Origin: Candidatus Thioglobus sp. NP1
GTDB lineage: Bacteria; Pseudomonadota; Gammaproteobacteria; PS1; Pseudothioglobaceae
Length of the DNA stretch: 64,000 nucleotides
NCBI RefSeq assembly: GCF_003326015.1
Contig: NZ_CP023860.1
Coordinates: 124,001-188,000 of the forward strand
Reading direction: 5' to 3'
Part shown: in pieces, positions 36,283-64,000 of the stretch
Position numbering within the stretch: the first letter of the stretch is position 1
Layout of the letters: each line of letters starts with the position of its first letter
Notes under the pieces: model-generated
What the model was told of the DNA's origin: nothing
Seen by the model: only the letters and a program-made list of their open reading frames with translations
The model's database searches: none
Translations under genes and position numbers: made by a program

Positions 36283-36285
36283 AAC

Positions 36286-37780: not shown

Positions 37781-37782
37781 CA

Positions 37783-39138: not shown

Positions 39139-39150
39139 TCTTATAAGAAA

Positions 39151-40227: not shown

Positions 40228-40232
40228 AATAT

Positions 40233-41549: not shown

Positions 41550-41566
41550 TTAATAATCCTCAATGG

Positions 41567-43981: not shown

Positions 43982-44058
43982 ATAACAAACCTTAATGTGT
44001 TACTAAAAATAGATGTTAATTCAAAAATTAACAAAATTCAAGTGGAGAAATTAAACCC

Positions 44059-46705: not shown

Positions 46706-46755
46706 AATCGTTCATCCTATTTAATATATGTGGCAGTTTTAAGTTATCCATACTT

Positions 46756-48360: not shown

Positions 48361-48363
48361 TGA

Positions 48364-49245
48364 TTAACCCTTGACAGCGCCGGCTGTTAATCCACTAACA
48401 AGCTGTCTTTGAAAAAACATAACCAGAATAAACAATGGAATTATGGCAGATACAACTGCTGCAACTGCAAACATAATATTACCTTCTGTTTGAGTAGTAC
48501 CCATAAAGCTAGCAATTTTAGGGACCATAGTTTGGTTTTCCTGGGATAGCAGAATTGCTGTAACAGCAAAATCATTATATGCCAAAAGAAATGAGAAGAG
48601 TCCAGCAGTAATAACACCTGGCCACATCACTGGAATTATTACATGTCGAAATGCTTGGAACTGAGTACAGCCATCAACTTTTGCACTCTCATCAAGCTCT
48701 TTCGGAATTGTTTGAAAAAATGAGTGCAGCATCCATAATGTAAAAGGCTGGTTAATTGCCACTAAAACAATAATAGTAGTCGGAAGTGTTCCCCAAACAT
48801 TCCAATCGTAGAAGGGTTGTAAATACCCAGAAACAAGAGTGATTGGAGGCAGAGCACGAAAAACAAGTGCGATTATTAGCAGCCAAAAAGAATAACGAAA
48901 GCCAGACCTTGAAAGCGCATAACCACCTAAAGTTGCAAGAGTTAATGATATGAGTACTGTGAAAAAACAAACTATCGCTGTATTAAGAAAAGCGCGCCAA
49001 AACTCTTCTTGGATCCATGCGCCCTCATAACCAGCGCCTGTAAAAGATTCTCCATATACTGCTTGAGTTCTTACTCCAGAAAATACATTAGTCCAGTCTG
49101 CTTTTGAGAAAAAATCCAGCTCTACTTTAAATGAGCCCCACATAGTCCAAATAAATGGAAAGGCTGCCAAAATTAACCAGAATAATACAAAGCCATATAT
49201 AAGTAGTTGGAGTCCTAATGGTCTTTTTATTTGATTTGAAGTCAT
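48364..49245 (-). CDS. ABC transporter permease 2 (MalG/UgpE type)
   Basis: Inner-membrane subunit with about six membrane segments; the coupling EAA loop is ESAKVDGCTQFQAFRHVIIP. I start it at the ATG at 49245 (293 residues): GGAG lies seven bases upstream and the codon follows the first permease's stop directly, while the GTG at 49269 has no such site. The carbohydrate-type (CUT1) class moves sugars, polyols, glycerophosphodiesters and related solutes. Paired with permease 1 and the solute-binding protein; the ATPase is in operon B. Confidence 0.86.
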   Translation of the reverse strand: MTSNQIKRPLGLQLLIYGFVLFWLILAAFPFIWTMWGSFKVELDFFSKADWTNVFSGVRTQAVYGESFTGAGYEGAWIQEEFWRAFLNTAIVCFFTVLISLTLATLGGYALSRSGFRYSFWLLIIALVFRALPPITLVSGYLQPFYDWNVWGTLPTTIIVLVAINQPFTLWMLHSFFQTIPKELDESAKVDGCTQFQAFRHVIIPVMWPGVITAGLFSFLLAYNDFAVTAILLSQENQTMVPKIASFMGTTQTEGNIMFAVAAVVSAIIPLFILVMFFQRQLVSGLTAGAVKG

Positions 49246-49246
49246 A

Positions 49247-50272
49247 TTATTTCTCCGGGTTAAATTCACGCCATGTTCTTATCAAAACAGGCATAAGAAG
49301 TATGACGACGCCAATTATTGTCAACACTGATGTGGTTGCCGCCGAAGAAAGAAGTCTTATCTCTTGGCCAATATCATTCCATATAATCCATGAAAGAGAA
49401 GTCGCATGTGCCGAAGCACTAAAACCAACTATCGGCTCAAATACTCGAAAATTATCCATCAGCTGAATTAAAGCCACAAATGCCACTAGTGGAGATAAAT
49501 GAGGCACAATAACATGAATAGTTTGCTGAAAACGTGTGGCCCCATCAATCATTGCTGCTTCTATAGTTTCTTGCGGAACAGTCTGAAGTCCAGCATAAAA
49601 AACAATGAATGCAAAAGGGGCAGAATGCCAAACACCGTAAACAATAAGTGTTATCCATGTTAGGTTAGTTGATGCTTTTAATGACAGCATTGGATCTGCA
49701 AATAATTCTTGGAGACCTGAACCAATAATACCTCGTGCATCAATCATCCAAAACAGAATCAACGAACCGATCAAAGGGGTAACAATCATTGGCAACAATG
49801 AAAAGAACACCATAAATCCTTTCAAGTGACGATGCAGTGAGTTAACTGCTAGTGCAATTATAAATCCAAATAATATAACCAGTGGGGTTACCACAGCAGT
49901 ATAAGTCAAAGTAAAGCCCATTGCTCGATAAAATGGAAGATTCTTTAGACTGGAAAAAAAATCAATGAAGTTTGTCTTATTCTCCCATAACTCACCAACC
50001 TCTTTAAAGGCTAGGTGATTTCTATCAGTATAGATTTGAAATCCAACCCACTTCCCTTGTGGCTTATCTTTCTTAATTTGTTGACTTGCCTGATGGTCAA
50101 TAGTTGTTTCAGATTTACAACCAAATGGATCACATGATTCAACAACAATCAAAACTGCGTCATGAGGTGTATGAAGTGATTGGCTTACAATCGAAGTTAA
50201 GGGTAAGGCAATGAACAAAAACATTGCTAGTGCTGTAGGTAAAAAAAACCAAAAAAAAGTCTTATGCTTCAT
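49247..50272 (-). CDS. ABC transporter permease 1 (MalF/UgpA type) with a long periplasmic loop
   Basis: 341 residues, longer than typical UgpA (about 295). One membrane segment (7-32) is followed by a loop of about 80 residues with two cysteines (C47, C52; ESCDPFGC) before the second segment near 118. The coupling loop EAAMIDGATRFQQTIHVIVP is canonical. The loop insertion is the odd part; the cysteines could form a disulfide in the periplasm and contact the binding protein. It is 99 bases after the binding-protein gene, across a hairpin, and nearly abuts permease 2. Confidence 0.86.
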   Translation of the reverse strand: MKHKTFFWFFLPTALAMFLFIALPLTSIVSQSLHTPHDAVLIVVESCDPFGCKSETTIDHQASQQIKKDKPQGKWVGFQIYTDRNHLAFKEVGELWENKTNFIDFFSSLKNLPFYRAMGFTLTYTAVVTPLVILFGFIIALAVNSLHRHLKGFMVFFSLLPMIVTPLIGSLILFWMIDARGIIGSGLQELFADPMLSLKASTNLTWITLIVYGVWHSAPFAFIVFYAGLQTVPQETIEAAMIDGATRFQQTIHVIVPHLSPLVAFVALIQLMDNFRVFEPIVGFSASAHATSLSWIIWNDIGQEIRLLSSAATTSVLTIIGVVILLMPVLIRTWREFNPEK

Positions 50273-50307
50273 ATGGAAATAATAAGATTAGAGAAACTTA
50301 ATTATAC

Positions 50308-50340
50308 AAAAAAAGAAAAGGGCATGTGCAACACACGCCC
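50308..50340 (-). terminator. hairpin with T-run between binding-protein and permease genes
   Basis: On the minus strand a stem (GGGC.TGTG paired with CACA.GCCC, one mismatch, bases 50320-50340, three-base loop) is followed by TTTTCTTTTTTT (50308-50319). Placed 31 bases after the binding-protein stop, it looks like a partial terminator or RNA-stabilising hairpin that would leave the binding protein more abundant than the permeases. Confidence 0.7.
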
Positions 50341-50371
50341 TAATCTTAGGAGACAAACAACTTACAAAAGC

Positions 50372-51601
50372 TTATAAATAGCCTTTTTCTGTCGCAGCAG
50401 TTGTGTATGCCGCTTCTAAACCAGCTAAAGCTTGCTCAGCAGTTTCTTTGCCTTGCATGAAGTCAACTAATTCAGCACCTGCGGCTGAATGCATTAGACC
50501 TGCATATGGCAACATTGGATAAGGCTTAGTTCCCATTGCAGCAGCAGCAAATACACCTGCAGCAGCTGGAGTAGGCTCATAACCGTCAATTAACCAAACA
50601 GCTTGTGGCGAAGTCGTTTCGTTCAACATATCTGGACGAATTGCATGCATCAAAGCCATAAAAGTAGCCTCTGCATCTGCATCTGAAATATTCTTAGCTA
50701 CAGTAAATCCATCCCACCATAGAGTTGAAGCTGCAGTTGTTCCACCACCAACTGTCATAGGACCAGCAGTAGCTGTAGCAGCTACTACAGCTGCATCTAC
50801 CTCATCACCTCTAAGAGCACCGATACGTGATCCCCACATATTCATCAGAGCAACATTACCAGCTTTCCATTCGGCACTAGTTGCGTTTGAGTCATGCGTT
50901 AGGAAGTCAGGGTTCATATACTCAGATAAAGCTTTCATCATATTTAGTGCATCTACACCATGTTGGTTATTGACAGCAATTTCAGCTGTTCCTGGCTTAA
51001 AGAACTCACCACCATGACCAATATACATATTAACAAACTCTTCTGCTAAGTTCCAGCCTGAAGCATAAGCACCACCAAGTGGGTACTGCATCAAATTATA
51101 GTTACGAATTGTTTCAGCAGCTGCTAACATTTCTTCATAAGTCGAAGGAACATCAATACGTAACTCTTTCAAAACATCTGATCTATAAGTAAGATGTTGA
51201 GCATTTGCCATAAAGGCAATACCCATAATATTACCATCAATTGTAACTAACTGGCTTTTCTGAAGACCCTGTCCATGCTTAGCAACTAGATCATTCAAAG
51301 GTCTGATCACATCATTGTTCATAAGTGCAACAATTGATGAGTTAGCAACGATAGCTGCTGTAAATTCAGCTGGGTTACCAGTCATACCTGGAAGATTAAT
51401 TTTTTGATGATCAGCAGTTAGATTTGTTTCAACTGTAACACCACCACCTGCACATTCCATTGCTCCAGCACCAATAGTTTGGATCGCTGGAAACTCATTA
51501 CCAACAATACTAACTCTGCCTTCAGCAATTCCACATCCTGCCCAAGCACTAGAAGTTAGTGTTGTAATTGCTACTACTGTAGCGATTTTTCTTAAAAACA
51601 T
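50372..51601 (-). CDS. ABC transporter substrate-binding protein (CUT1 class)
   Basis: 409-residue periplasmic protein. Signal peptide MFLRKIATVVAITTLTSSAWA with likely cleavage before G22; a Cys follows (C23) but no lipobox fits, and a second Cys is at 50. The extracellular solute-binding fold is seen from NEFPAIQTIGAGAMECAGGG, GWNLAEEFVNMYIGHGGEFFKPG, ALMNMWGSRIGAL and TLWWDGFTVAKN. Many Trp, Tyr and small residues in the cleft region suit a small polar ligand. Start is supported by AAGGAG six bases before the ATG. First gene of operon A, directly downstream of a LacI-type operator. Confidence 0.88.
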   Translation of the reverse strand: MFLRKIATVVAITTLTSSAWAGCGIAEGRVSIVGNEFPAIQTIGAGAMECAGGGVTVETNLTADHQKINLPGMTGNPAEFTAAIVANSSIVALMNNDVIRPLNDLVAKHGQGLQKSQLVTIDGNIMGIAFMANAQHLTYRSDVLKELRIDVPSTYEEMLAAAETIRNYNLMQYPLGGAYASGWNLAEEFVNMYIGHGGEFFKPGTAEIAVNNQHGVDALNMMKALSEYMNPDFLTHDSNATSAEWKAGNVALMNMWGSRIGALRGDEVDAAVVAATATAGPMTVGGGTTAASTLWWDGFTVAKNISDADAEATFMALMHAIRPDMLNETTSPQAVWLIDGYEPTPAAAGVFAAAAMGTKPYPMLPYAGLMHSAAGAELVDFMQGKETAEQALAGLEAAYTTAATEKGYL

Positions 51602-51660: not shown

Positions 51661-51676
51661 TTGCATACGATTGCAA
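51661..51676. promoter_or_regulatory. LacI-type operator 1 (operon A)
   Basis: TTGCATACGATTGCAA: 6 of 8 base pairs symmetric, with a central CG, the typical form of LacI-family operators. The same 15-base core recurs at 62967-62981. It lies 60 bases before the binding-protein start and four bases after the -10 box, so it would cover the transcription start and block RNA polymerase. The likely protein is the LacI-type regulator at 57208-58221. Confidence 0.72.
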
Positions 51677-51799: not shown

Positions 51800-52618
51800 T
51801 CAATCAAAAAAATCGATAACTGAGTCCAAACTCGTGAAGTTAATAATAACATCACAATTTTTTTGTAATAAAGGTTTTGCTTTGTAGGCAATGGATAATC
51901 CCACAATTCTCATCATTTCTAGATCATTTGCACCATCGCCAATGGCTAGAACTTGGTTTTTTTTAAGGCCATAAATCATGCAGAGCTCATTAATGTAGTT
52001 TGCTTTTTCTTGAGGACCAACAACTGTCCCAATAACACTTCCTGTTAAATAATTATTTATAATCTCTACATTATTAGCTTTAAATGAATCAAGCCCCAGT
52101 TGATTTTGAAGTTGCTGAGCAAAATAAGATAGTCCACCAGAAACTAATGCAGTTTTAATATTCATTGATTTTAAAAAATCAATTAGTTCAATGGCTCCAT
52201 CACTGTAATTTAATTTTTCATCATATACTTGCTTTAAAATTTCAATTTTAGTGCCTCTTAGCATTAAAACTCTAGCTTTAAATGAAGAGCTAAAATCTTG
52301 GTATCCTAGCATAGTTTTTTTAGTGATAGATGCCACCTCATTTTCTATACCTACTAATTTAGCGATCTCATCAATGGTCTCAATTGTGACCAAAGTTGAA
52401 TCCATATCGCTAACAAAAAGTCCTATTTCAGAGTAGTTAAAATTATCTTTAAATAGATTTAAGTCAGCTCTATTTGATTGTCTTAATTGCTCTAAATTGA
52501 ATGACAGCTTTGTATGAATACGGAAGTGATTTTTTCTTTGTTCTAGCTCTCCATTTAAATTGGATGAAAGATTTTGAGCTAAAGCTAAATCTTGACTATG
52601 CAAAATGATTGTCTTCAT
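51800..52618 (-). CDS. serB: phosphoserine phosphatase
   Basis: Last step of serine synthesis: removes phosphate from O-phosphoserine. HAD-family with motif I SDMDSTLVTIETIDEIA (nucleophile Asp near residue 90), motif II LVSGG, motif III Lys in GPQEKANYI and motif IV AIGDGANDLEMM. The 272 residues include a degenerate N-terminal segment before the catalytic domain, shorter than E. coli SerB (322). It sits between the two LacI-linked operons on the same strand, 91 bases after the RraA-like gene. A possible hairpin (51757-51775) follows but has no T-run. Confidence 0.9.
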   Translation of the reverse strand: MKTIILHSQDLALAQNLSSNLNGELEQRKNHFRIHTKLSFNLEQLRQSNRADLNLFKDNFNYSEIGLFVSDMDSTLVTIETIDEIAKLVGIENEVASITKKTMLGYQDFSSSFKARVLMLRGTKIEILKQVYDEKLNYSDGAIELIDFLKSMNIKTALVSGGLSYFAQQLQNQLGLDSFKANNVEIINNYLTGSVIGTVVGPQEKANYINELCMIYGLKKNQVLAIGDGANDLEMMRIVGLSIAYKAKPLLQKNCDVIINFTSLDSVIDFFD

Positions 52619-52709: not shown

Positions 52710-53420
52710 TTATGTTCTTGATTTTTCGAAATCTTCCCATGCACTTTTAAAGCTATCAAAATTGAAATCTTTCTTTTCAGCAGGACCAAGTATTAACTGC
52801 TCTGAAGCAAATAACTTTTTGATAGCATCCTTTAAACCATTAATAACTTCTTTAGGAATTACAACTGCACCATGAAGATCGGCATGAATTAAATCATTTG
52901 GCGACACACTCATACCAAGAACACTAATTTTTGTATCAATTTCTCTTACGTGAACAAACCCGTGACTTGGACCGATAGAGCCTGCAACAACTGGAAAATC
53001 TACTGCAAGATCACCAAGATCTCTCATGACCCCATTAGTCAGCGCTCCAGAGAGGCCAAACCCTTTGTGGACCTTAGTATTAACCTCACCCCAATAAGCT
53101 CCAATACAATTTGGATAATCAACATCCTCAATTACTGCAACAGAAGGGCCAGTGACTTCTGACATATATTGGTAATAATTCATCCTTCGCTCTTTAGTTA
53201 TCTCTTGATCTTCTTGAGGAGGACTCAGCGCAGCAATTTTTGCAGTTTTAGCAAAACCTACCATTGCTCCACCCTTTGGTGCTGAGCAAATCATCGTTCC
53301 ATGAGTAAATTCTGAAAAACCACGCTTACCTTGTGCTACTTCAATTGCATTACATACTGTAGGCGTGTCAACTGATTTAAGAAGTTCAAGTAACTCTGAA
53401 TCTATCAATTCATTAGCCAT
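52710..53420 (-). CDS. RraA-like aldolase/decarboxylase family protein
   Basis: 236 residues of the RraA/HMG-aldolase fold: GGAMVGFAKTAKI, SGALTNGVMRDLGDLA (the R-D pair used in catalysis or metal binding) and NDLIHADLHGAVVIP. Members cleave 4-hydroxy-4-methyl-2-oxoglutarate or decarboxylate oxaloacetate; only some regulate RNase E. Context in a catabolic operon favours the enzyme role. Last gene of operon B; its start overlaps the alpha/beta hydrolase by 16 bases. No terminator is clear in the 91 bases before serB. Confidence 0.75.
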   Translation of the reverse strand: MANELIDSELLELLKSVDTPTVCNAIEVAQGKRGFSEFTHGTMICSAPKGGAMVGFAKTAKIAALSPPQEDQEITKERRMNYYQYMSEVTGPSVAVIEDVDYPNCIGAYWGEVNTKVHKGFGLSGALTNGVMRDLGDLAVDFPVVAGSIGPSHGFVHVREIDTKISVLGMSVSPNDLIHADLHGAVVIPKEVINGLKDAIKKLFASEQLILGPAEKKDFNFDSFKSAWEDFEKSRT

Positions 53421-54097
53421 TTCTTTAGTACCTCCGTGGTTTTTATAGGTTGCTCTAATGTTGGCATATGGCCAGCATTCTTAATTACCTCTAATTTAGA
53501 ATTACTAATAATATTATGCATCAACTCATGCCTATCTAAAGGACATAATTTATCCTCTAAACCACACATAATAAGCACTGGCATATTAAGTAATCTAAGT
53601 GTTTTTTGGTAATCCATTCTATCTCGAAGTGCTTTTGATTGATTAATAAAAACTTTAGGACCCAAAGACAGCGCCATTTCCATACAAGTATTTAAGATAG
53701 TATCTTGATTCTCACTATCAGCTAAATAATTAGGTTTCATTTCATCACGAATAACATTTATTAATTTACCAGAAAGTGCTTCGCTCATTTGTGGCCCCCG
53801 CTTAAGCTTAACTTCCTCTAATTCAGCATAAGGATTAGTATCAATAAGTGCTAATTTTTCAATACGTTCCGGTGCTTGTGCACATACAGCCATAGCAACG
53901 ATTCCACCCATAGAATGTCCAGCCAGGCAAAAATTTCTTGGCGCTTTACTTAAGACATATGCTGCCAAATCAGTCATATTTGAATGTTTAGATATATCTG
54001 CAATAGAAACTTCATAATATTTACCAAGCTCTTTTATTTGATGATTAAAAATACGCTCATCACACATCATTCCAGGAATCAGAACTAAGGCTGTCAT
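53405..54097 (-). CDS. alpha/beta hydrolase
   Basis: 230-residue serine hydrolase fold. Nucleophile S62 in the elbow GHSMGG, acid Asp in CGLEDKLCPLDRH and His in NAGHMPTLEQP; oxyanion region LIPGMMCDERIF. No lid domain of unusual size. It could hydrolyse an ester, lactone or enol-lactone made in the pathway; the sequence does not say which. Overlaps the MetE-like gene by 4 bases (ATGA) and the RraA-like gene by 16, so the three are translationally coupled. Confidence 0.82.
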   Translation of the reverse strand: MTALVLIPGMMCDERIFNHQIKELGKYYEVSIADISKHSNMTDLAAYVLSKAPRNFCLAGHSMGGIVAMAVCAQAPERIEKLALIDTNPYAELEEVKLKRGPQMSEALSGKLINVIRDEMKPNYLADSENQDTILNTCMEMALSLGPKVFINQSKALRDRMDYQKTLRLLNMPVLIMCGLEDKLCPLDRHELMHNIISNSKLEVIKNAGHMPTLEQPIKTTEVLKKWLMN

Positions 54098-55227
54098 AGC
54101 CGACTAGTTGCAAGTGCGGCACCCTCAGACAGCGACTTTAGTTTGGCAAAAGCAATGTCTGGATCCACTGCACCAAATCCAGCAAAGGTACCAAACCCGC
54201 AATCAGAACCCGCAATTACTCTCTCCTTGCCAACTATATTAACAAATTTTTCAATGCGCTCAGCGACTAACTCTGGATGCTCAATAAAATTAGTCGTAGT
54301 ATCAACGACTCCTGGAACAAGTATTTTAGTATCAGGTATGTCATTCTTTCGATCCCTAAATACAGTCCATTCATGGGCATGGCGTGGGTTTGAAGTTTCG
54401 AACAATGTATATCGAGCCTTCGCTTTCATTAATGTACCAAAGACCTTACTCATATCTATATCACAGCAATGAGGGCCCTCGTAGTTGCCCCAACAAATAT
54501 GAATTCTGACTTTCTCTTCTGGTACATTCTTAAGCGCATGATTCATAGCCTCAACATGAGAATCAGCAATCTTAATAAACTCTGAATCTGACAAATCATT
54601 AAAAAGCATATGTCTAGAAAGTGCTAGATCTGGACAGTCCAACTGAAGATCTAATCCTGAAGCAACAATAGTCTCATACTCGTCCCTCATTACATCAGCA
54701 AGTGCAGCAAGGTAAGCATCTCTTGAAGGGTAATAATCATTTTGCAAAAATAATGAAATAACACCTGGCGATGCTGCGTTCATAAAGCCTCTTTCAATGC
54801 CATTTGCATTCATCGCAGCTTGCAAATTCGAGATATCTTTTTGCAACTCCCCCTGACCTTTTGACTTAATCTCACTAGTACACATTGGGCGAGCATATTG
54901 AGGAGTTCCTCCCTCATCAGCCAATCTTTTTAGAAAGCCAGGAAACTGCTTCAAATCTTCTGGTGCATTTCGAGAGCTATCTCCAGAGAAACCTTCATAC
55001 CTATCTTTGACATAGGTTGCATAAGATATTTTTGATGTTTCACCATCACTAACGATATCAATGCCTGCTTTCTTTTGCTTTTCAACTGTATTTTTGACAC
55101 TTAGTTTCATACAATCATCAAATTTTTGCTCATCAAATTGCTGATTATTCTCTCGAGCAAAAATATAATCCACAACATCTTGTGATCGTGGCAATGAACC
55201 TACGTGACTAGTTAAAATTTTGCTCAT
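54094..55227 (-). CDS. MetE C-terminal-domain-like protein (cobalamin-independent methionine synthase II family)
   Basis: 377 residues, about half of MetE: it has only the catalytic barrel. Opening SHVGSLPRSQDVVDYI is typical of this short family. The zinc site is likely His and Cys in HICWGNYEGPHCCDID, a Glu in FETSNPRHAHEW and the Cys in SDCGFGTF. Short relatives include methyltransferases and epoxyalkane:coenzyme M transferase, not only methionine synthases. Within operon B a thiol-dependent transfer of a methyl or alkyl group is likely, but the donor is unknown. Follows the cupin gene after 31 bases. Confidence 0.75.
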   Translation of the reverse strand: MSKILTSHVGSLPRSQDVVDYIFARENNQQFDEQKFDDCMKLSVKNTVEKQKKAGIDIVSDGETSKISYATYVKDRYEGFSGDSSRNAPEDLKQFPGFLKRLADEGGTPQYARPMCTSEIKSKGQGELQKDISNLQAAMNANGIERGFMNAASPGVISLFLQNDYYPSRDAYLAALADVMRDEYETIVASGLDLQLDCPDLALSRHMLFNDLSDSEFIKIADSHVEAMNHALKNVPEEKVRIHICWGNYEGPHCCDIDMSKVFGTLMKAKARYTLFETSNPRHAHEWTVFRDRKNDIPDTKILVPGVVDTTTNFIEHPELVAERIEKFVNIVGKERVIAGSDCGFGTFAGFGAVDPDIAFAKLKSLSEGAALATSRL

Positions 55228-55258
55228 TTATTAACCCCTAATAATAATTTTTATAATA

Positions 55259-56224
55259 CTACCTTAACCAAGTTGATCCTGCAGGATCATCAGTATTAGT
55301 AACGCGAAAAAGACTAGCATTGCCTATCTTTCTGGGCACAAGTTTATGATCTAAATTAGGTGGAATTAAGCAAGTATCACCTGGCCCAAGATTAGTTTTT
55401 TTGCTATCCCACTGTAATTCCCACTCTCCATTCATAATCATATTAACTACATGATGATTAGTTGAATAGGTTTTGTTTAAAAATGAATCATCAGTAATAA
55501 AATCAACTTCAAAACCTGGACGATCCTTTAATATTGCTTCTCTTCCAATAACTTTTGCTGGTTTATTTTTTGATTTTTGATGTAATTCTGAAGAACTTAC
55601 AAAAAAGTTATTTAAAAAATCCTCAGTTGTTATTTCAGGAAAATTTTTCAATTCCTCATCAGTAAGTACAGGCATTGGATTAATATTATTTGGCAAAGAC
55701 TGGCCTTTTTTAGTGTCGTATAATAATCCATCTTCACCAAGAATAAGTCCAAAATCTTTAGCATCATTAATAACCTTTGGAGCCCATGTAACTCCACCTC
55801 CAGCATCATCTCCACCAAGGATAGCCATTAACATTCCATAGTCGCTTCCAACATTTTCAAATGCTCGAAATATACCTGTAGGGATATTTATAAGATCTCC
55901 CTCTTCAGCAATAACTTCACCAGCATTTCCAGACTGTCCCCAAAAAAAACGCCACTTACCCTTAAATACATAGAATACTTCAGCTGTTGTGTGCGTATGA
56001 AGCGAGTTAATACAACCTGGTGGTTGACCAGCAGCACCAATATTAAAGCCAGGTGTTTGTTTAATATGAACATGCTGATCAGGACTTTCTGATACCCCTG
56101 ATCCAATAATGGTAAAGTTTTCTTTCTGATTTGAACCGGGAGTGTGAGCATCAATAAAGGCTGTTTTACAAGGCTTTAAATCAGCATATCGAACTATACA
56201 TTTTTCCATCTGTTCTAATGTCAT
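55259..56224 (-). CDS. bicupin protein
   Basis: 321 residues with two cupin domains (about 55-150 and 220-315). In domain one motif 1 fits the metal pattern exactly (G(x)5HxH(x)3E(x)6G: GCINSLHTHTTAEVFYVFKG), but motif 2 GDLINIPTGIFRAFEN has Arg where a His ligand is expected, so the site would be HHE only. Domain two has NHHVVNMIMNGEW and GDTCLIPPNLDHKLV. Gentisate-like dioxygenases and isomerases share this fold. In operon B between the SnoaL and MetE-like genes, it may be an isomerase or dioxygenase; the reaction is unknown. Confidence 0.72.
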   Translation of the reverse strand: MTLEQMEKCIVRYADLKPCKTAFIDAHTPGSNQKENFTIIGSGVSESPDQHVHIKQTPGFNIGAAGQPPGCINSLHTHTTAEVFYVFKGKWRFFWGQSGNAGEVIAEEGDLINIPTGIFRAFENVGSDYGMLMAILGGDDAGGGVTWAPKVINDAKDFGLILGEDGLLYDTKKGQSLPNNINPMPVLTDEELKNFPEITTEDFLNNFFVSSSELHQKSKNKPAKVIGREAILKDRPGFEVDFITDDSFLNKTYSTNHHVVNMIMNGEWELQWDSKKTNLGPGDTCLIPPNLDHKLVPRKIGNASLFRVTNTDDPAGSTWLR

Positions 56225-56226
56225 TA

Positions 56227-57195
56227 TCAGCCCATCTTAATTAGTATTTGCTTCCATAATGCGGTTTCATCAAAAAGGGTGTATTCTCTCCTCAAGCCCG
56301 ATGGACCAAATTCAGCATGTGAAACTCCCATTACGTAAAGCTCAGCACCGGTTGGCTCGCCAAAAACACCTGAACCTTCATGTTTTCCTTTTAGACTCCA
56401 TCGAACTGCAGCTCGAGGAGACATTTTTTTATCCTCACGACCAATTTGATGTTCAACAGAAAATTTAGCACTTGGCATTGATGAGCGCAATCCCATCCAA
56501 AATTCCTCTGCATCAGGATAAGAATGTGCTGATACGCCTCCTGGATACTCGAGGTGGCAACCCCTGTCGTACTCGGAATGAATAACTGATTGATCAGAAT
56601 TCATTATCCGTTTCAATATGTCAACATACTTTTCGCCCCACTCATTATTATTGCCCTTACCTAAATATGGTCCTGGTTTATCTATGGTATCTGTAAAGGG
56701 TCTATTACAGTTACTCATACCTCCCTCTAAATCTATCTGTTTTCTAGCAAAGTCCTTAGGATGGTCACCTAATTGTCTTGCCATAGCACCCACATCACGA
56801 ATCAACCACTCATCATTGACCTGGTTATTAATCGCATGACAATCTGCAATAGTTCTAAAGACAATTTTTTTGCCAGTAGGCTTACCAAACTGGCCATCTC
56901 CTAAGTGTGTTGCAGTTGATATAATTCTATGCGAAGATAGCATTCCTGTTTCAGGAGTACCTGACCATATTACATCTTCACCTAAAAGTTGACGATCTGG
57001 AAACTCTGTTAATGTAGCATTGGTAGCATCGATAACAGGTTTGTTACCAATTACAAGTGCAGAGGGTGATCTTAAAATAATATCATCTGAATACAAGTAT
57101 AGTAACTTATCTACTCCTCGCTCCTCCCAAATTTCGTAAGTAATTCCATTTATCCAGTCTGGAAAATTTTTGTACTTTGGATCAAAATCTTTCAT
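56227..57195 (-). CDS. SnoaL-like (NTF2-fold) protein B
   Basis: 322 residues, two NTF2-like domains. Recognised from the first-domain block DKLLYLYSDDIILRSPSALVIGNKPVI, KIVFRTIADCHAINNQVNDEWLIRDVGAMARQLG, and a second domain with YDRGCHLEYPGGVSAHSYPDAEEFWMGLRSSMP. It is more diverged than the other three copies in this region. It begins 12 bases after the LacI gene and ends 2 before the cupin gene. The reaction is not known; an aldol-type or hydrolytic step is usual for the fold. Confidence 0.65.
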   Translation of the reverse strand: MKDFDPKYKNFPDWINGITYEIWEERGVDKLLYLYSDDIILRSPSALVIGNKPVIDATNATLTEFPDRQLLGEDVIWSGTPETGMLSSHRIISTATHLGDGQFGKPTGKKIVFRTIADCHAINNQVNDEWLIRDVGAMARQLGDHPKDFARKQIDLEGGMSNCNRPFTDTIDKPGPYLGKGNNNEWGEKYVDILKRIMNSDQSVIHSEYDRGCHLEYPGGVSAHSYPDAEEFWMGLRSSMPSAKFSVEHQIGREDKKMSPRAAVRWSLKGKHEGSGVFGEPTGAELYVMGVSHAEFGPSGLRREYTLFDETALWKQILIKMG

Positions 57196-57207
57196 TTAAT
57201 TAGCTCC

Positions 57208-58221
57208 TTATTTCTTTAAAATTTTTACTGATCCTCTTTGAATAAGAGGCCCATCTATTTCAATCCGTCTTGCGATAGTCGAATTATTTTCAATACAGTC
57301 AATGAGGATTGAAACTGTTTCTGCTACCATACGCTTAGCAGGCTGTCTAACTGTACTAAGGCTATAAGCTGGCCAAGCAGCAACTGGAACATCATCATAA
57401 CCAACCACTGAAACCTGTTCAGGTATTTTTATTCCAAGTTCAAAACGGATTACGTCCATTACTGCAAATGCCATGTGGTCATTAGCAACAAAAACTGCAT
57501 CTGGTATTTCGTCCTTAGAGAACATATTTCGTGCTGCTTGTCGAGCTTGTTCTAAATCAAAATTACCTACCTCTCTAGAGAAAAGACTTTGTCCATTTTT
57601 TTTAAGTTCATCAATAAAGCCTTTTTCTCTATCTCTTTGAGTAGAAGCTCCCTCCCATCCTGCAATATAAGCAATTCGCTTATGGTCATTTTTACACAGA
57701 AGTTGAGCAACTTTTTTTCCTCCAAGCTCGTTATCAGAAGTAACAGCTGATAATCTCTTATCATCTTGAGTACGGTTAAACAAAATAACAGGAACCCCCG
57801 CATCAGAACATCTTGCTGCCAAATTAGTAGACATACCTACTGAGGCTGCAATTATTCCATCAACTTGATAGTCTAAAATTTCATCTACAACATTATCAAT
57901 ATTTCCTGTGGTATTTGTCGCCATGAAGACCAGCACGTGGTAGCCATTTTTTTGAAGCGCTCCAGAAAGTAGCTCTAAAGCCTCAGGATAAAAATAATTA
58001 TCTAAGTAGGCAACAACTAATCCTATAATTTTTGACTTCCCAGTGATTAATGATCGAGCCAATACATTTGGCCTATACCCAAGATCCAAAGCAGCTTTTC
58101 GAACTAATGCATTAGTCTTTTTAGATGATGAAGCTCCAGGTGTAAAAACTCGAGACACCGCAGATTGGCTTACACCAGCAAGTTTTGCAACCTCTATTGA
58201 TGTTATTTTTTTATTTAACAT
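57208..58221 (-). CDS. LacI-family transcriptional regulator
   Basis: 337 residues: an N-terminal helix-turn-helix (ITSIEVAKLAGVSQSAVSRVFTPGASSSKKT, residues 5-36) with the hinge helix LGYRPNVLARSL, then a periplasmic-binding-protein-like effector domain (LVVAYLDNYFYPEALELLSGA; VFVANDHMAFAVMDVI; SVVGYDDVPVAAWPAYSLSTVRQP). I start it at ATG 58221, where it forms TAATG with the SDR stop; an upstream TTG at 58236 is less likely. Encoded inside operon B. The central-CG operators before both operons are the expected target. Confidence 0.88.
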   Translation of the reverse strand: MLNKKITSIEVAKLAGVSQSAVSRVFTPGASSSKKTNALVRKAALDLGYRPNVLARSLITGKSKIIGLVVAYLDNYFYPEALELLSGALQKNGYHVLVFMATNTTGNIDNVVDEILDYQVDGIIAASVGMSTNLAARCSDAGVPVILFNRTQDDKRLSAVTSDNELGGKKVAQLLCKNDHKRIAYIAGWEGASTQRDREKGFIDELKKNGQSLFSREVGNFDLEQARQAARNMFSKDEIPDAVFVANDHMAFAVMDVIRFELGIKIPEQVSVVGYDDVPVAAWPAYSLSTVRQPAKRMVAETVSILIDCIENNSTIARRIEIDGPLIQRGSVKILKK

Positions 58222-58985
58222 TAGTCTGCTGTCCAACCCCCATCTACCATAAGTGCAGATCCAGTAATCATTGAGGAGGCATCTGAAGCTAGAAAAACAA
58301 CTGCACCCATGATATCTTCAACCTCTCCAATTCGGCCTAATTTAATTTTGCTTTCAATCCACTCTTTCCGCTCAGGATTATCAAAAGTAGACTGTGTGAG
58401 AGGCGTCCTTATAAATGTTGGACAGATTGTATTGATTCTAATTTGATGAGGTCCCCACTCAATAGCCATCGCCTTAGTAAAACCCTCAACAGCATGCTTT
58501 GATGCAGAATAAACTGCTCGATCAATGCCACCAACATGTCCCATCTGCGAAGAAATATTAATTAAAGAGCCAGGTTTTTTTGCTGCTAACATTCCATTTG
58601 CTACCGCCTGAGTAAGGAAATATGCGCCACGGAGATTTACATTCATTACTGCGTCAAAATCTTCTACTGATGTGTCTTTAGAAGGTGCATGTCGTCCTAA
58701 GCCTGCACTATTAACTAGAATATCAAATGGGCCATTTCTGTCAATAATTTCTTTGATTAAATCTGTATCAGCAACATCCATCATCATTGCTTCAGCACTT
58801 AACCCTTTTGCCTTAATTGCATCAACAATTGAATCAAGTTTATCAATACTGCGAGCTGATACTACAACATGAGCACCTGCTTCAGCTAGAGCCACTGCAC
58901 AACTTAGGCCAATACCAGACGAAGCCCCTGTAATTAATGCAGTCTTATTTTCTAGCCTAAATGATGGTGTAGTTGGAAGTTTCAC
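58221..58985 (-). CDS. short-chain dehydrogenase/reductase (operon B)
   Basis: 254-residue NAD(P)-dependent oxidoreductase of the gluconate 5-dehydrogenase-like group. Cofactor motif TGASSGIG, NSAG in place of NNAG, catalytic Ser in NISSQMG and YSASK. The end SSMITGSALMVDGGWTAD is standard. It lies 2 bases after the second SnoaL gene and is joined to the LacI gene by TAATG. With the GMC and HisD-type enzymes it makes a third alcohol-oxidising activity in the regulon. Confidence 0.88.
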   Translation of the reverse strand: MKLPTTPSFRLENKTALITGASSGIGLSCAVALAEAGAHVVVSARSIDKLDSIVDAIKAKGLSAEAMMMDVADTDLIKEIIDRNGPFDILVNSAGLGRHAPSKDTSVEDFDAVMNVNLRGAYFLTQAVANGMLAAKKPGSLINISSQMGHVGGIDRAVYSASKHAVEGFTKAMAIEWGPHQIRINTICPTFIRTPLTQSTFDNPERKEWIESKIKLGRIGEVEDIMGAVVFLASDASSMITGSALMVDGGWTAD

Positions 58986-58987
58986 AA

Positions 58988-60043
58988 TTAATGCACCTTT
59001 ATATTTCTTGCTTTATTAAACTCTCTTACTCTACCTAGCACATCGACACCCATTTGATCATATATATCAAGGATATCAATCATGACCCAGTTTTCCCTTA
59101 TTTTTCCTTCTTCAAGTCTCCAGAAATCAAGTGAGCGAAGAACTACTTCTTTGTTATTTGGGGCTATACCCATCCAACCATCATGGGTCAGAGTTTGTTT
59201 CATATTTGGCCACCCAGTAACCGCCACATAGTCTCCATCTCCAAAAAAGTGGAAATCTACTTTATCTCCCGAGCCACCTTTATTAGTGAAGGTTGTATCC
59301 TTGCCCCTATCAGGCATAGCATTGAGAAATGGAATCTGATGCCAATTTCTAAAACCTTCAATTCCTCTTCCACTGCCAATAGCAGATGGACCATACCAAT
59401 TCATTTTTGGATGCCAATAGTAATCCATTTTCATAATTTCAGGACCACCCTGTGATGGATGCTTTTTCATAGCATCAGCCATTCCTAAAATGTGCTCCAT
59501 TGAAGAGTTGCTTTTTTCTAGATCATAAGGCTTATCTGAAATTCCATCCATCGTTGCTGGCCCTGGAACACACCATTCTCTTCCAAGTGATGGAGCCATT
59601 GGCCATGAATCTGATTGCATCATTAGTTCTGGTATATCCCATAAAGCCTGAACTTCTATTATTTTGTCACCCTTAAAGCAATAAAACTCATGAAATCTCA
59701 TATGGGCTATATGGCCTGTTGGTGGTATATCTAAAAAAGGCTTCAAGAAAGTACCATTATAAAAGCCAGCGCATCCTACCCACTCTATATCCCTTTCTGT
59801 TTTTCCAGCAATAACAATATAATCCCGCCTTTCTAGATCTGGTAATGACTCAAACAAGGGTTGCAGAGCCTGATTATAAAAATTAGTTGAGCCTGATATA
59901 TCCCCAAAAGGATGGGAAAGATGAATAATAGCTTCTTCATGAAATAAGGAGTCAAGGTTTTTTCGAACCCCATCTTCAGTAAAACTGTACATACTTAATC
60001 TTAGAGGCTTTATTAGATCCTTAAGATTATTTATTCTATGCAC
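58988..60043 (-). CDS. SnoaL-like (NTF2-fold) protein C
   Basis: 351 residues, two SnoaL-like domains (about 15-160 and 195-345). The second has the pattern GYVAVTGWPNMKQT, DGWMGIAPNNKEVVLRSLDFWRLEEGKIRENWVMIDILD, close to protein A at 45695. It appears to start with GTG at 60043, fused to the HisD-like stop as TAGTG, which implies coupled translation; the internal Met near residue 18 is less likely. No catalytic residues can be assigned with confidence. Confidence 0.68.
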   Translation of the reverse strand: MHRINNLKDLIKPLRLSMYSFTEDGVRKNLDSLFHEEAIIHLSHPFGDISGSTNFYNQALQPLFESLPDLERRDYIVIAGKTERDIEWVGCAGFYNGTFLKPFLDIPPTGHIAHMRFHEFYCFKGDKIIEVQALWDIPELMMQSDSWPMAPSLGREWCVPGPATMDGISDKPYDLEKSNSSMEHILGMADAMKKHPSQGGPEIMKMDYYWHPKMNWYGPSAIGSGRGIEGFRNWHQIPFLNAMPDRGKDTTFTNKGGSGDKVDFHFFGDGDYVAVTGWPNMKQTLTHDGWMGIAPNNKEVVLRSLDFWRLEEGKIRENWVMIDILDIYDQMGVDVLGRVREFNKARNIKVH

Positions 60044-61353
60044 TACTGCGCTGCCTTACCATAAGGCACATCCTCTCCACCATAACGCCTTACTCTTATA
60101 TTAGCTTGCTCTGCATGACCAACAAATGACTCAAGCATACAGAGTCGAGAACAGTACCTACCAATCTTAACGGCCGCCTCATCTGTAGTAATTTTTTGAT
60201 AGCTATGAGTTTTAAGATACTTACCAACCCAAAGTCCCCCGGTATAACGACCTGCTTTTTTTGTTGGTAAAGTATGATTGGTTCCAATTACTTTATCACC
60301 ATTAGAAACATTTGTTCTTGGTCCTAAGAATAATGCGCCATAAGAATGCATATTTTCTAAAAACCAATCATCACGATCTGTCATTACCTGGACATGCTCA
60401 GATGCAATTTCGTTTGCAACATCTAGCATCTCTTCATAAGTATCACACAGCACAATTTCTCCATATTCTTTCCAACTTACTGAAGCAGTATCCGCTGTGG
60501 GAAGGATTGTTAAAATTCTTTCGATTTCAGATATTGTCTCTTCAGCTAGACTTTTATTATTAGTTACTAGAACAGCTGGAGAGTTATATCCATGTTCGGC
60601 TTGACCCAACAAGTCTGTTGCACATAATTCTGCATCAACAGTATCATCAGCTATCACCATAGTCTCTGTTGGTCCAGCAAATAAATCAATCCCAACCTTA
60701 CCAAATAACTGCCTTTTAGCTTCGGCAACAAAGGCATTTCCTGGCCCAACAAGCATATCAACTGGATCAATTGTCTCAGTTCCTAAAGCCATAGCACCAA
60801 CAGCTTGAATACCTCCTATGACATATATTTCATGCGCACCACCAAAGTGCATAGCTGCAATAACTGCTGGATTTGGTGAGCCTTGATAAGGAGGAGTACA
60901 TGCAATTATCCTTGGAACTTTTGCAACACTAGCTGTAACAACCGACATATGTGCAGAGGCAACCATTGGGAATTTACCTGCTGGAATATAACATCCAACT
61001 GATTGAACAGGAATATTTTTATGTCCTAAAATAACTCCTGGCATAGTTTCAACTTCAATATCTTGCATTGAGTCACGTTGCGCTTGAGCAAAGTTTCTGA
61101 CCTGCTCCTGTGCGAATTTAATATCCTCAAGATCTTGCTTAGATACCTGATTTATTAGGTTATCGATTTCTGCTTGACTTAATTTAAAAGATTCTGGAGT
61201 GTAGTTATCAAACTTTTTCGCAAACTCTTTCACAGCTTCATCACCTCTTTCCTCAATAGCTTTTAAGGTGTTTTTAACAATTTCACTAACCTGGGCATCA
61301 TCTATAGCTTTGGCTGCATCAGTCTTTCCTTTTTTTAAATAATTAATTGCCAT
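60043..61353 (-). CDS. HisD-family dehydrogenase, HpsN-like (not histidine biosynthesis)
   Basis: 436-residue NAD-dependent alcohol-to-acid dehydrogenase. Histidinol dehydrogenase residues are conserved: zinc ligands Q251, H254, D353 and H413, catalytic E319-H320. Motifs: [47 protein letters not shown]. The sequence looks closer to HpsN, the sulfopropanediol 3-dehydrogenase of roseobacters, than to biosynthetic HisD, and it has no his genes near it. The likely role is four-electron oxidation of a terminal alcohol. The substrate is unknown: DHPS is one candidate, other polyols are possible. Confidence 0.8.
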
Positions 61354-61364
61354 AATGTCTCCAA

Positions 61365-61850
61365 TTAGTTAGGCTTTGAGGGAATTAATTCACCTCGATC
61401 ATATGATTCCCAACCTAAGCCGTTAAAAATATCAACACCCAGTTGGGATAAAATACTTGGGAAATCTACAGTTACCCAATTGTCTATTATGAGACCGTCT
61501 TTGACCTCCCAAAAATCTGTATAGTGAATTTTCACACGTTTGTTCGTAGGTGCTATACCCATAAATTCTCCACTATGGATTGCATCAATATGACCAAAGC
61601 ATGATGCCCAATTACCATCTACTAAAAACTTATCAGTATTATATATTCGATCAGAAAAAGCGGCCCTTAAGGGGAGTTGCCAATTATTTCGAAAATCTTC
61701 AAGATTCTTTTTTACACCACAACCTTGATTGCCCATCCAGCGAAAATCTTTATGAAAGTGCTTGTCCATACTGTTTGAATTAGCTCCCAATGCTTCTTCC
61801 ATTGCCTTAACTACTGCAAGGGTTTTTTGGGATTTTTCATCATAACTCAT
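61365..61850 (-). CDS. SnoaL-like (NTF2-fold) protein D, single domain
   Basis: 161 residues, a single NTF2-like domain similar to the second domains of proteins A and [51 protein letters not shown]. The family pattern of MGIAPTxK...DxW...G.I..NW is clear. It starts 15 bases after the ATPase gene and ends 11 before the HisD-like gene. Function unknown; it may form a hetero-oligomer with the two-domain copies. Confidence 0.72.
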
Positions 61851-61865
61851 TCCAAATCTCCAATT

Positions 61866-62918
61866 TTAGTCATCTAGCATCTTGCCAGTTTTTGAACTGA
61901 AAAGAAGGCACAAGTTTGCAGAAATATTTGCCATCACTTTAGAGCCAATTTCTACATGGAAATTTTTATCAGATTTAATTGATATAAGATCTCCACCAGC
62001 CTTTATTGAAACCATAGTCATATCTCCTAAAAGTTCCATAGAAAATGCTGGCGCTGAAATTGAGCCCTTACTTTTAACAATAGTAGCATCTTCAGCACGA
62101 AACCCCAACTGAACCTTCCCAGAATGTTTCTTACTTAAGCCTTCAATCTTTACGTTATCACATGTAAAAACGCCATCCTTAATTACGCCATTCATCAGAT
62201 TCATAGCAGGAGAGCCAATAAAACTAGCCACAAAACTATTGGCAGGTTTATTGTATATTTCTTGGGGGGTTCCAACCTGCTGAACAAGTCCATTGTTCAT
62301 CACAACAACACGATCAGCAAGGGTCATTGCCTCAACCTGATCATGCGTTACATAAATAGTTGTTACACGTAACTTATGCTGCAGGTTTTTAATTTGTGCA
62401 CGTGTTGAGACCCTTAATTTTGCATCAAGATTTGATAGTGGCTCATCCATTAAAAAAACTGTTGGTTCACGAACAATTGCTCTGGCTAAAGCAACTCTTT
62501 GTCTCTGCCCGCCAGAAAGTTCTCCTGGCTTTCGATGAAGGAAATCATTAAGTTCAACCATCTCGGATGCCCTCATTACCTTTTCTTTATGAAGAGCTTT
62601 ATCAATATTCCTGACCTTTAGAGGGAATCTTATATTTTCATATACAGTCATATTTGGATATAGCGCGTAGGATTGAAAAACCATCGCCACATCACGGTCC
62701 TTTGGCTCTAAATCATTAACAACTTTACCATTAATTGATACCTCACCATTTGTAACACTTTCAAGGCCAGCGATCATTCTCATAGTTGTCGTTTTGCCAC
62801 ACCCAGAAGGGCCAAGTAATACCAAGAATTCTTCATTAGGAATAGTCAGATTAAAATTATCTACCCCAACGAAATCTCCCCAGCGTTTTGTGAGGTTTTT
62901 TAGTTCAATTTCAGCCAT
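61866..62918 (-). CDS. ABC transporter ATP-binding protein (MalK/UgpC type)
   Basis: 350-residue ATPase of the CUT1 class: Walker A GPSGCGKTT, Q-loop in VFQSYALYPN, signature LSGGQRQRVALARA, Walker B FLMDEPLSNLD and H-loop in VTHDQVEAM, then a TOBE-type C-terminal regulatory domain (about 240-350). It is first in operon B and has no permease near it. The permeases and binding protein of operon A (45.7-51.6 kb) have no ATPase of their own, and both operons carry the same operator, so this is very probably their ATPase. Confidence 0.9.
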   Translation of the reverse strand: MAEIELKNLTKRWGDFVGVDNFNLTIPNEEFLVLLGPSGCGKTTTMRMIAGLESVTNGEVSINGKVVNDLEPKDRDVAMVFQSYALYPNMTVYENIRFPLKVRNIDKALHKEKVMRASEMVELNDFLHRKPGELSGGQRQRVALARAIVREPTVFLMDEPLSNLDAKLRVSTRAQIKNLQHKLRVTTIYVTHDQVEAMTLADRVVVMNNGLVQQVGTPQEIYNKPANSFVASFIGSPAMNLMNGVIKDGVFTCDNVKIEGLSKKHSGKVQLGFRAEDATIVKSKGSISAPAFSMELLGDMTMVSIKAGGDLISIKSDKNFHVEIGSKVMANISANLCLLFSSKTGKMLDD

Positions 62919-62965
62919 ATTTTTTTATGTATACTATTTATGATAAAGTTGCATCGAATTTTGAA

Positions 62966-62981
62966 ATGCATACGATTGCAA
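62966..62981. promoter_or_regulatory. LacI-type operator 2 (operon B and the divergent BKACE gene)
   Basis: ATGCATACGATTGCAA, differing from operator 1 only in its first base; the 15 following bases are identical. It lies four bases after the -10 box of operon B, at the same spacing as operator 1, and 48 bases before the ATPase start. A related TTGCATCG lies at 62949-62956. Bound repressor could also affect the BKACE gene, which starts 132 bases away on the other strand. Confidence 0.72.
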
Positions 62982-62985
62982 AAAT

Positions 62986-62994
62986 ATTATAGCA
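62986..62994 (-). promoter_or_regulatory. extended -10 promoter of operon B
   Basis: TGCTATAAT on the minus strand is a perfect extended -10 box. Its four-base distance to the operator is the same as in operon A. No strong -35. Confidence 0.6.
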
Positions 62995-63113
62995 CATGCT
63001 TTTTTCTTTTGTTACTGATGTTTAAAAAGTGTTCAATAAATCGTATATTATTTCAATCTAAATTTAGTATTAAATAAATTAAAATAACAAAAACCTATGT
63101 TTGGAGAAATCAT

Positions 63114-64000
63114 ATGACCAACCTACAACCTACACGGGAAGTGTTTATTACATGTGCTGTTACCGGTTCTGGTGACACGACAGGTAAATCAGATAAAGTA
63201 CCAATCACCCCGCAACAAATTGCTGACTCATGCATTGAGGCAGCTGAAGCTGGTGCAGCTATTGTCCATATTCATGTTCGCAACCCTAAGACTGGGGTGC
63301 CAGCTCGTGACCCTGCATTGTATGCTAAAGTTGTTGACATTATTCGTGAATCAAAAGTTGATATGGTAATCAACTTTACTGCAGGAATGGGTGGAGATCT
63401 GGTTTTTGGTTCTGCAGAAGAACCGCTTCCACTTAAAGAAGAAGGCACGGATATGGTTGGTGCATCTGAACGACTTGATCATGTTAGAAATATTCTTCCA
63501 GAAATATGCACGATTGATTGTGGAACAATGAATTTTGGTGAAGGTGGTTACGTTATGACTAACACTCCAGCTGTTCTTAAGGAGATGGCTGCTCAAGTTC
63601 AGGCACTTGGTGTAAAGCCAGAAATAGAATGTTTTGATACAGGACATCTGCAACTTGCGATCTGGTTAAAAAATCAAGGTTTGATTGATGACCCAGTAAT
63701 GATTCAATTATGTATGGGAATACCATGGGGAGCTCCAGATGATCTTCATACATTTCTAGCAATGACCTCAAGTATTCCTGAGGACTGGACTTTTTCAGCA
63801 TTCTCAATAAGTAGAAATCAGCTTCCATATGTAGCACTCGCGGTTTTAGCAGGTGGAAATATTCGTGTAGGCCTTGAAGATAATATCTATCTTAAACGTG
63901 GGGTCCTGGCTAGCAATGCTGATTTAGTTAAAAAAGCAGTGCAAACTGCTGAAGGTATGGGTTGTTCAATTTTGGGGCCACAACAAGTTCGTGATAATTT
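63114..64000 (+). CDS. BKACE-family beta-keto acid cleavage enzyme (cut by window edge)
   Basis: At least 295 codons; the C terminus is outside the window. I translated it directly. It has the zinc pair H52 and H54 in VHIHVRNPKTG, GNTMNFG-like DCGTMNFGEGGYVMTNTP, ECFDTGHLQLA, MGIPWGAP and VGLEDNIYL. These match the BKACE group that splits beta-keto acids with acetyl-CoA, in particular the type found in carnitine gene clusters (dehydrocarnitine to betainyl-CoA and acetoacetate). The exact substrate is inference. GGAG seven bases before the ATG supports the start. It is divergent from operon B and shares its operator region. Confidence 0.82.
   Translation, partial: MTNLQPTREVFITCAVTGSGDTTGKSDKVPITPQQIADSCIEAAEAGAAIVHIHVRNPKTGVPARDPALYAKVVDIIRESKVDMVINFTAGMGGDLVFGSAEEPLPLKEEGTDMVGASERLDHVRNILPEICTIDCGTMNFGEGGYVMTNTPAVLKEMAAQVQALGVKPEIECFDTGHLQLAIWLKNQGLIDDPVMIQLCMGIPWGAPDDLHTFLAMTSSIPEDWTFSAFSISRNQLPYVALAVLAGGNIRVGLEDNIYLKRGVLASNADLVKKAVQTAEGMGCSILGPQQVRDN

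Follow-up and report, generated by a model that had tools for sequence, protein, structure and literature searches.

Two neighbouring operons of Candidatus Thioglobus sp. NP1, here called A and B, appear from their sequences to form one LacI-controlled system of about 15 genes, and we consider it an even call whether that system is a catabolic regulon, repressed by LacI, whose substrate is polyhydroxylated and of a sugar-like or sugar-acid kind. Both lie on the minus strand of a 64,000-nucleotide stretch of DNA (the window), positions 124001-188000 of the single-contig 1.69-Mb genome. The class of substrate is suggested by the LacI regulator, by transporters of the CUT1, TRAP, MFS and SSS types, by the OtnK, OtnC and OtnI partners found in related clusters, by lactonase genes and by aldolases of the pyruvate type. 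The wider proposal, to which we give slightly less than an even chance, is that an undescribed pathway is common among marine and plant-associated bacteria and breaks down a polyhydroxylated compound that is abundant in dissolved organic matter but so far unrecognised there; it would rest on a third substrate class of HisD-type dehydrogenases and on SnoaL-type enzymes that are catabolic, not biosynthetic, and have new chemistry. An earlier reading of the window (the original prediction) had listed the gene families of operon B, with a GMC dehydrogenase and a fourth SnoaL-like protein in operon A, and had proposed that together they import, oxidise and break down a substrate along a route that matched no named pathway. 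The gene set is real, its coordinates, strand and families being confirmed by profile matches, and import and oxidation are supported. Searches of the literature for the set and for combinations of its genes found no characterised match, so the description of the pathway as undescribed stands as far as the literature searched shows.

Operon B (52710-62918) consists of 11 tightly packed genes, with intergenic gaps of -16 to +31 bp. From the promoter they encode a UgpC-type ABC ATPase (61866-62918), a single-domain SnoaL-type protein (61365-61850; PF07366, 59 bits), the HisD-type dehydrogenase (60043-61353; PF00815 Histidinol_dh, 455 bits), a tandem SnoaL-type protein (58988-60043; PF07366 and PF12680), a short-chain dehydrogenase (SDR; 58221-58985), the LacI-family regulator (57208-58236; PF13377/PF00356), which thus sits within the operon, another tandem SnoaL-type protein (56227-57195), a two-domain cupin, or bicupin (55259-56224), a MetE-like zinc protein of the cobalamin-independent methionine synthase II family (54094-55227; Meth_synt_2, PF01717), an alpha/beta hydrolase with a GHSMG nucleophile elbow (53405-54097) and an RraA-like protein (52710-53420; PF03737). 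Operon A (45695-51601) encodes a CUT1-type extracellular solute-binding protein (SBP; 50372-51601), two sugar-type ABC permeases (49247-50272 and 48364-49269), a choline-dehydrogenase-like GMC dehydrogenase (46756-48360) and the fourth SnoaL-type protein, recognised as tandem by alignment (45695-46705).

We read A and B as one LacI regulon with one transporter because they share an operator and because their genes stand side by side in related genomes, which bears out their joint treatment in the original prediction. A 16-bp stretch is identical 5' of the binding protein gene (51662) and 5' of UgpC (62967), and the 14-bp core TGCATACGATTGCA has exactly two copies genome-wide, one per operon (51662-51675 and 62967-62980, without strand), against 0.013 expected. 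This operator is palindromic and CG-centred, as in a LacI regulon. Across 80 loci with a HisD-type gene, window included, 99 operator-like sites were found against 2.7 expected; those that could be assigned lie chiefly before HisD, SBP and UgpC genes, roughly one in three is not followed by any recognised gene of the cluster, and 37 overlap a called open reading frame. The exact palindrome is present in 37 of 54 whole genomes, mostly at the cluster, and its reversed control in none of the 54. Sites away from the bicupin mostly precede HisD, SnoaL or transporter operons that are split off from the rest; the exceptions without such a partner are in our loci L189, L195, L198, L199, L200 and L201, and the match in L195 adjoins an alpha-amylase gene and could be part of a related LacI regulon. 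Transporter genes directly adjoin enzyme genes in L015, L016, L104 and many others, and the SerB gene that divides A from B (51800-52618) is an insert not present in the related SUP05 genome of L024. In three genomes the gene immediately upstream of a HisD operon resembles that of the GH63 glucosylglycerate hydrolase and is accompanied by ABC transporter genes (L190:2559-3854, L196:1934-3241, L197:2596-3891); as a hint to the substrate it stays a lead, since the neighbouring HisD operon has an operator of its own.

UgpC scores 443 bits against NF008653 (cut-off 432), its orthologues adjoin SBP and permease genes in L016, L030 and L104, and it is predicted to be the ATPase otherwise absent from the operon A transporter. 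The binding protein has weak matches in sequence searches of the PDB, all of them to sugar-binding proteins, and its orthologues adjoin HisD in L015 and L016. Variants of the cluster use TRAP, SSS or galactonate-type MFS transporters. The SSS symporter occurs in L019, L020 and L154, of which L020 additionally has a TonB receptor and a sulfatase-like gene.

The content of the gene set, and mostly its order, is kept across scores of genomes, far above chance, and the module is widespread, being found in hundreds of other bacteria. Among the 80 HisD-type loci, LacI was found in 76, SnoaL in 69, SDR in 65, aldolase in 60, hydrolase and ABC transporter genes in 59 each and MetE in 52, and a bicupin-based scan of genome contigs returned at least 578 relatives. 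By whole-genome search the cupin family is present in 25 of 399 genomes of the phylum; it is found in 42 of 385 genomes of the class of G598 and 124 of 298 of its Rhodobacteraceae-type family, some short single-cupin relatives being counted in the latter two figures. It is absent from two genomes of the window's family that belong to another genus. A Klebsiella plasmid record carries a compact cluster of LacI, HisD, SDR, MFS, hydrolase, HpaI-type aldolase and cupin genes, and compact versions are also found on plasmid records of Pantoea, Deinococcus and Priestia; these enterobacterial, Deinococcus and Priestia clusters are distant versions of the module. The short single-cupin relatives (about 175-200 residues) reach five per genome, as in L174 (G1030), L175 (G1124) and L176 (G1278), some in tandem and some beside TRAP transporters. 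If our proposal is correct, an unassigned uptake route for dissolved organic carbon is shared by about four in ten genomes of the Rhodobacteraceae type and by streamlined marine lineages, among them the SUP05-type sulfur oxidiser studied here. Knowing the substrate would then identify a new currency in the marine carbon pool and assign roles to the third HisD class, the bicupin family and the catabolic SnoaL proteins, whose present annotations read histidinol dehydrogenase, cupin and ester cyclase. Both the operator and the binding protein give direct experimental access to the question.

The HisD-type protein has the fold of its family (436 bits against the TIGR00069 cut-off of 243.8) and keeps the zinc ligands Q251, H254, D353 and H413, the catalytic pair E319 and H320, and K354. 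Its closest solved structures are those of HpsN (PDB sequence search, best E 6.5e-112), the dehydrogenase of 2,3-dihydroxypropane-1-sulfonate (DHPS), which is distinguished by a sulfonate-binding His in the motif GRY[AS]H (PMC11382572). Together with the Lys beside the zinc-binding Asp, kept as in HpsN, and with the host being a marine sulfur bacterium, this could point to a second DHPS-type pathway, in which the protein would act as a sulfopropanediol dehydrogenase on a related C3 sulfonate. We regard this as very improbable. The window protein has GKFPM in place of GRYAH, so that the sulfonate His becomes Met (Met or Leu across the class), and the His is missing from 87 of 87 sequences once the genome's own HpsN and those of HisD type are set aside; of the 90 sequences counted, 78 have GK[FY]P[ML] and nine GR[FY]P, with zinc ligands, catalytic Glu-His and Lys kept. 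The module also has an aldolase and LacI but no sulfo-lyase, and a complete HpsN/O/P cluster is already present elsewhere in the genome. As a DHPS dehydrogenase the protein is rejected on its residues. It equally departs from histidinol dehydrogenase, with GKFPM and Lys354 where HisD has a substrate loop of the GSAPL type and Tyr after the zinc Asp; the corresponding residues are GKAAY and Tyr in the genome's own HisD, and the motif of its own HpsN is GRYAH.

The GK[FY]P[ML] proteins form one clade with support of 99/97 in a tree that holds a single, long-branched HpsN. Because the catalytic set is kept, the sulfonate His is replaced and the clade is separate, we assign the HisD-type protein to a putative third specificity class, neither histidinol nor DHPS dehydrogenase, which, going by the mechanism of its family, should oxidise a primary alcohol next to a zinc-binding hydroxyl to the carboxylate. 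The nearest relatives of the window protein are in SUP05/Pseudothioglobaceae genomes, and its nesting in a largely alphaproteobacterial clade suggests lateral transfer into SUP05. The second subclass, with GR[FY]P, recurs in L032, L045, L056, L067, L106 and L170, often near an amidase, and stands apart from the main clade in the tree. The module resembles DHPS catabolism by HpsN, HpsO and HpsP in joining a HisD-fold four-electron dehydrogenase and an SDR in one operon, with identical zinc and catalytic residues, but it lacks the sulfonate His, HpsP and a sulfo-lyase and adds LacI, aldolase, SnoaL and cupin; the genome's own HpsN and the window protein share 43% identity. The DHPS-type cluster of the same genome (L005:6806-16998; G000:C1:72805-82997) comprises UxaA/SuyB-like, HpsN (GRYAH), HpsO-like, HpsP-like, GntR and TRAP transporter genes.

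For a sugar-like substrate, the genes could act as follows. After import by the SBP, the permeases and UgpC, a four-electron oxidation by the HisD-type protein would turn a terminal HOCH2-CH(OH)- group into a 2-hydroxy acid, and the SDR would convert the 2-hydroxyl to a 2-oxo group. In this order the two steps would make a 2-oxo acid from HOCH2-CH(OH)-R, and both aldolase families act on acids of that type. The alpha/beta hydrolase may open a lactone or ester, and the RraA-like protein, or elsewhere the HpaI-type aldolase, would split a 4-hydroxy-2-oxo acid into pyruvate and a smaller carbonyl compound. SnoaL-type proteins and the bicupin might perform cofactor-free dehydration, isomerisation or lyase steps, the bicupin alternatively an oxygenation, and the MetE-like zinc protein and the accessory GMC dehydrogenase perhaps remove a methyl group or oxidise a further alcohol of some substrates. 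The fixed reaction order and the ring opening of the original prediction are not established by the evidence. Non-phosphorylating sugar pathways, of the lra type for L-rhamnose and L-fucose and of the GarL type for galactarate, follow a logic of SDR, lactonase or hydrolase, and HpaI-type aldolase. The family matches of the module's SDR, hydrolase and aldolase are of this kind, a likeness drawn partly from general knowledge, but no acid dehydratase of known families was seen in the module, and HisD, SnoaL, bicupin and MetE-like proteins are foreign to those pathways.

The SDR is gluconate/2-keto-3-deoxygluconate 5-dehydrogenase-like; its best NCBIfam model gives 233 bits, under the cut-off of 279, and YxxxK and GxxxGxG are present. 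Class II aldolases of the RraA/HMG-CHA type are recognised by a metal- and pyruvate-binding motif in which an acidic residue is followed after 20 positions by Arg-Asp. In the RraA-like protein this motif (E112-x20-R133-D134) is intact, and it is invariant in 11 sequences; the curated LigK/PcmE equivalog is not reached (30 bits, cut-off 304.5). In other clusters an HpcH/HpaI-type aldolase replaces or accompanies RraA: 51 loci have RraA only, 18 HpaI only, nine both and 24 neither (Fisher p=0.0027, which, like the p-value for HisD and OtnK below, counts related genomes repeatedly and overstates independence). The two aldolases thus partly replace each other. Genes like that of L-fucono-lactonase, a sugar-acid lactonase, lie at the operator region in L104, L203 and L204.

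As in tetronate utilisation (OtnK/OtnC/OtnI, LtnD), Otn genes partner the same triad of bicupin, hydrolase and aldolase in Vibrio, Thioclava, Ensifer and Rhodobacteraceae; unlike there, OtnK is absent from the window's genome and from every HisD-type locus examined. Six of the 22 loci that lack HisD carry OtnK, mostly together with OtnC and OtnI, and none of the 80 HisD-type loci does (HisD alone in 80, Otn alone in six, neither in 16, both in 0; p=5.5e-5). With OtnK/C/I and HisD as alternative partners, the triad might itself make a C4 sugar acid with a shape like that of DHPS, L-threonate or erythronate, which HisD would oxidise at C4 towards tartrate in place of OtnK/C/I. An L-threonate dehydrogenase adjoins OtnK in L167, which fits this and also the sugar-acid reading in general; the same gene led us to drop the argument that OtnK loci always lack a threonate 2-dehydrogenase and that the triad must therefore make 2-oxo-tetronate. 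We consider the C4 route unlikely, however: SnoaL and MetE are left unexplained by it, the HisD-OtnK exclusion runs parallel to a difference in cupin subtype, and the window's genome yielded no tartrate dehydrogenase over the cut-off, leaving tartrate unsupported as an end product there.

The bicupin invites a different reading, in which a quercetinase-like dioxygenase cleaves an aromatic or heterocyclic ring, the hydrolase splits an ester or the cleavage product, and RraA or HpaI plays the same part as in the meta-pathways for protocatechuate and homoprotocatechuate. Its fold is nearest to quercetinase, oxalate decarboxylase and salicylate dioxygenase, both aldolase families are known from aromatic pathways, and some loci have a COG3618-type lactonase, which with an RraA-family aldolase recalls protocatechuate 4,5-cleavage by LigI and LigK. 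Yet the first cupin domain keeps H76, H78 and E82 and has R120 for the third His, Arg in every homologue aligned, whereas quercetinase-type dioxygenases have HxH, Glu and a further His in cupin motif 2. In the model (pLDDT 81.5, poor for residues 20-59; plasmid-derived rows were left out of the structure-prediction alignments) the resemblance to quercetinase and oxalate decarboxylase gives whole-fold TM-scores of at most 0.5. The module has no ring-hydroxylating, ring-cleavage or hydratase genes, and regulation and transport are of the sugar type. Ring cleavage is accordingly a distinctly unlikely account.

The SnoaL-type proteins share the fold of the polyketide cyclases SnoaL and AknH, and the modelled tandem protein (56227-57195) has two SnoaL domains at pLDDT 95. 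Asp121 is the catalytic residue of SnoaL. A profile comparison with 1sjw, which covered the single-domain protein and not the tandem ones, places Val at the equivalent position; as a polyketide cyclase the single-domain protein is ruled out by this residue, and the tandem domains and catabolic context set the group apart further. Homologues of the fourth SnoaL protein in other genomes stand next to an operator and a lactonase-like gene. For SnoaL, as for the bicupin, MetE, RraA and the binding protein, sequence searches of the PDB brought up remote relatives only.

The MetE-like protein has invariant zinc ligands (H243, C245, E277, C343) and scores 97.6 bits against curated methionine synthase (cut-off 406); the best model for the GMC protein gives 553 bits, under its cut-off of 605. 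The original prediction made both of them steps of the pathway. MetE-like, GMC and amidase genes look accessory, because many clusters lack them: MetE is missing from over a third of the HisD-type loci and GMC genes are near few other clusters, so that neither a required MetE-like step nor a core GMC oxidation is borne out.

Several observations weigh against the sugar-like reading. An amidase occurs in nine of the 80 HisD-type loci and a C-N hydrolase in others (L112, L155), neither of which a plain sugar needs, and genes neighbouring the operons are betaine- or carnitine-related and might hint at a methylated nitrogen compound. RraA and HpaI occur together in nine loci, so their equivalence is not required; the HisD-OtnK exclusion counts related genomes and goes with cupin subtype; neither OtnK nor a tartrate dehydrogenase above cut-off was found in the window's genome; and the bicupin is without its third cupin His. 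The first two of these, with the MetE-like gene of 52 loci and the MttB-type neighbours, would suit an N- or O-methylated compound demethylated by the MetE-like protein, or an amide in the amidase variants, with diol oxidation secondary. This seems highly unlikely to us, as the module can dispense with both MetE and amidase and the quaternary-amine neighbours occur only at the SUP05 locus.

A pair of genes for L-carnitine degradation, kept beside the cluster in other SUP05 genomes, diverges from operon B (63114-63998 and L004:3114-5506): one gene is of the BKACE type (DUF849), the other encodes a fusion of carnitine 3-dehydrogenase and thioesterase (713 bits, above cut-off). At 34741-45579 the window holds two MttB-like methyltransferase genes, under the cut-off of the trimethylamine model, an 804-residue oxidoreductase of the DAO-GcvT type and an M24 protein resembling the dimethylsulfoniopropionate lyase DddP (480 bits, cut-off 600). 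In two SUP05 genomes a HAD-like protein of 230 residues with no NCBIfam match stands between bicupin and MetE (L023:5804-6496, L024:10954-11646), and an apparent homologue, judged by eye, is encoded elsewhere in the window's genome (L005:192-860).

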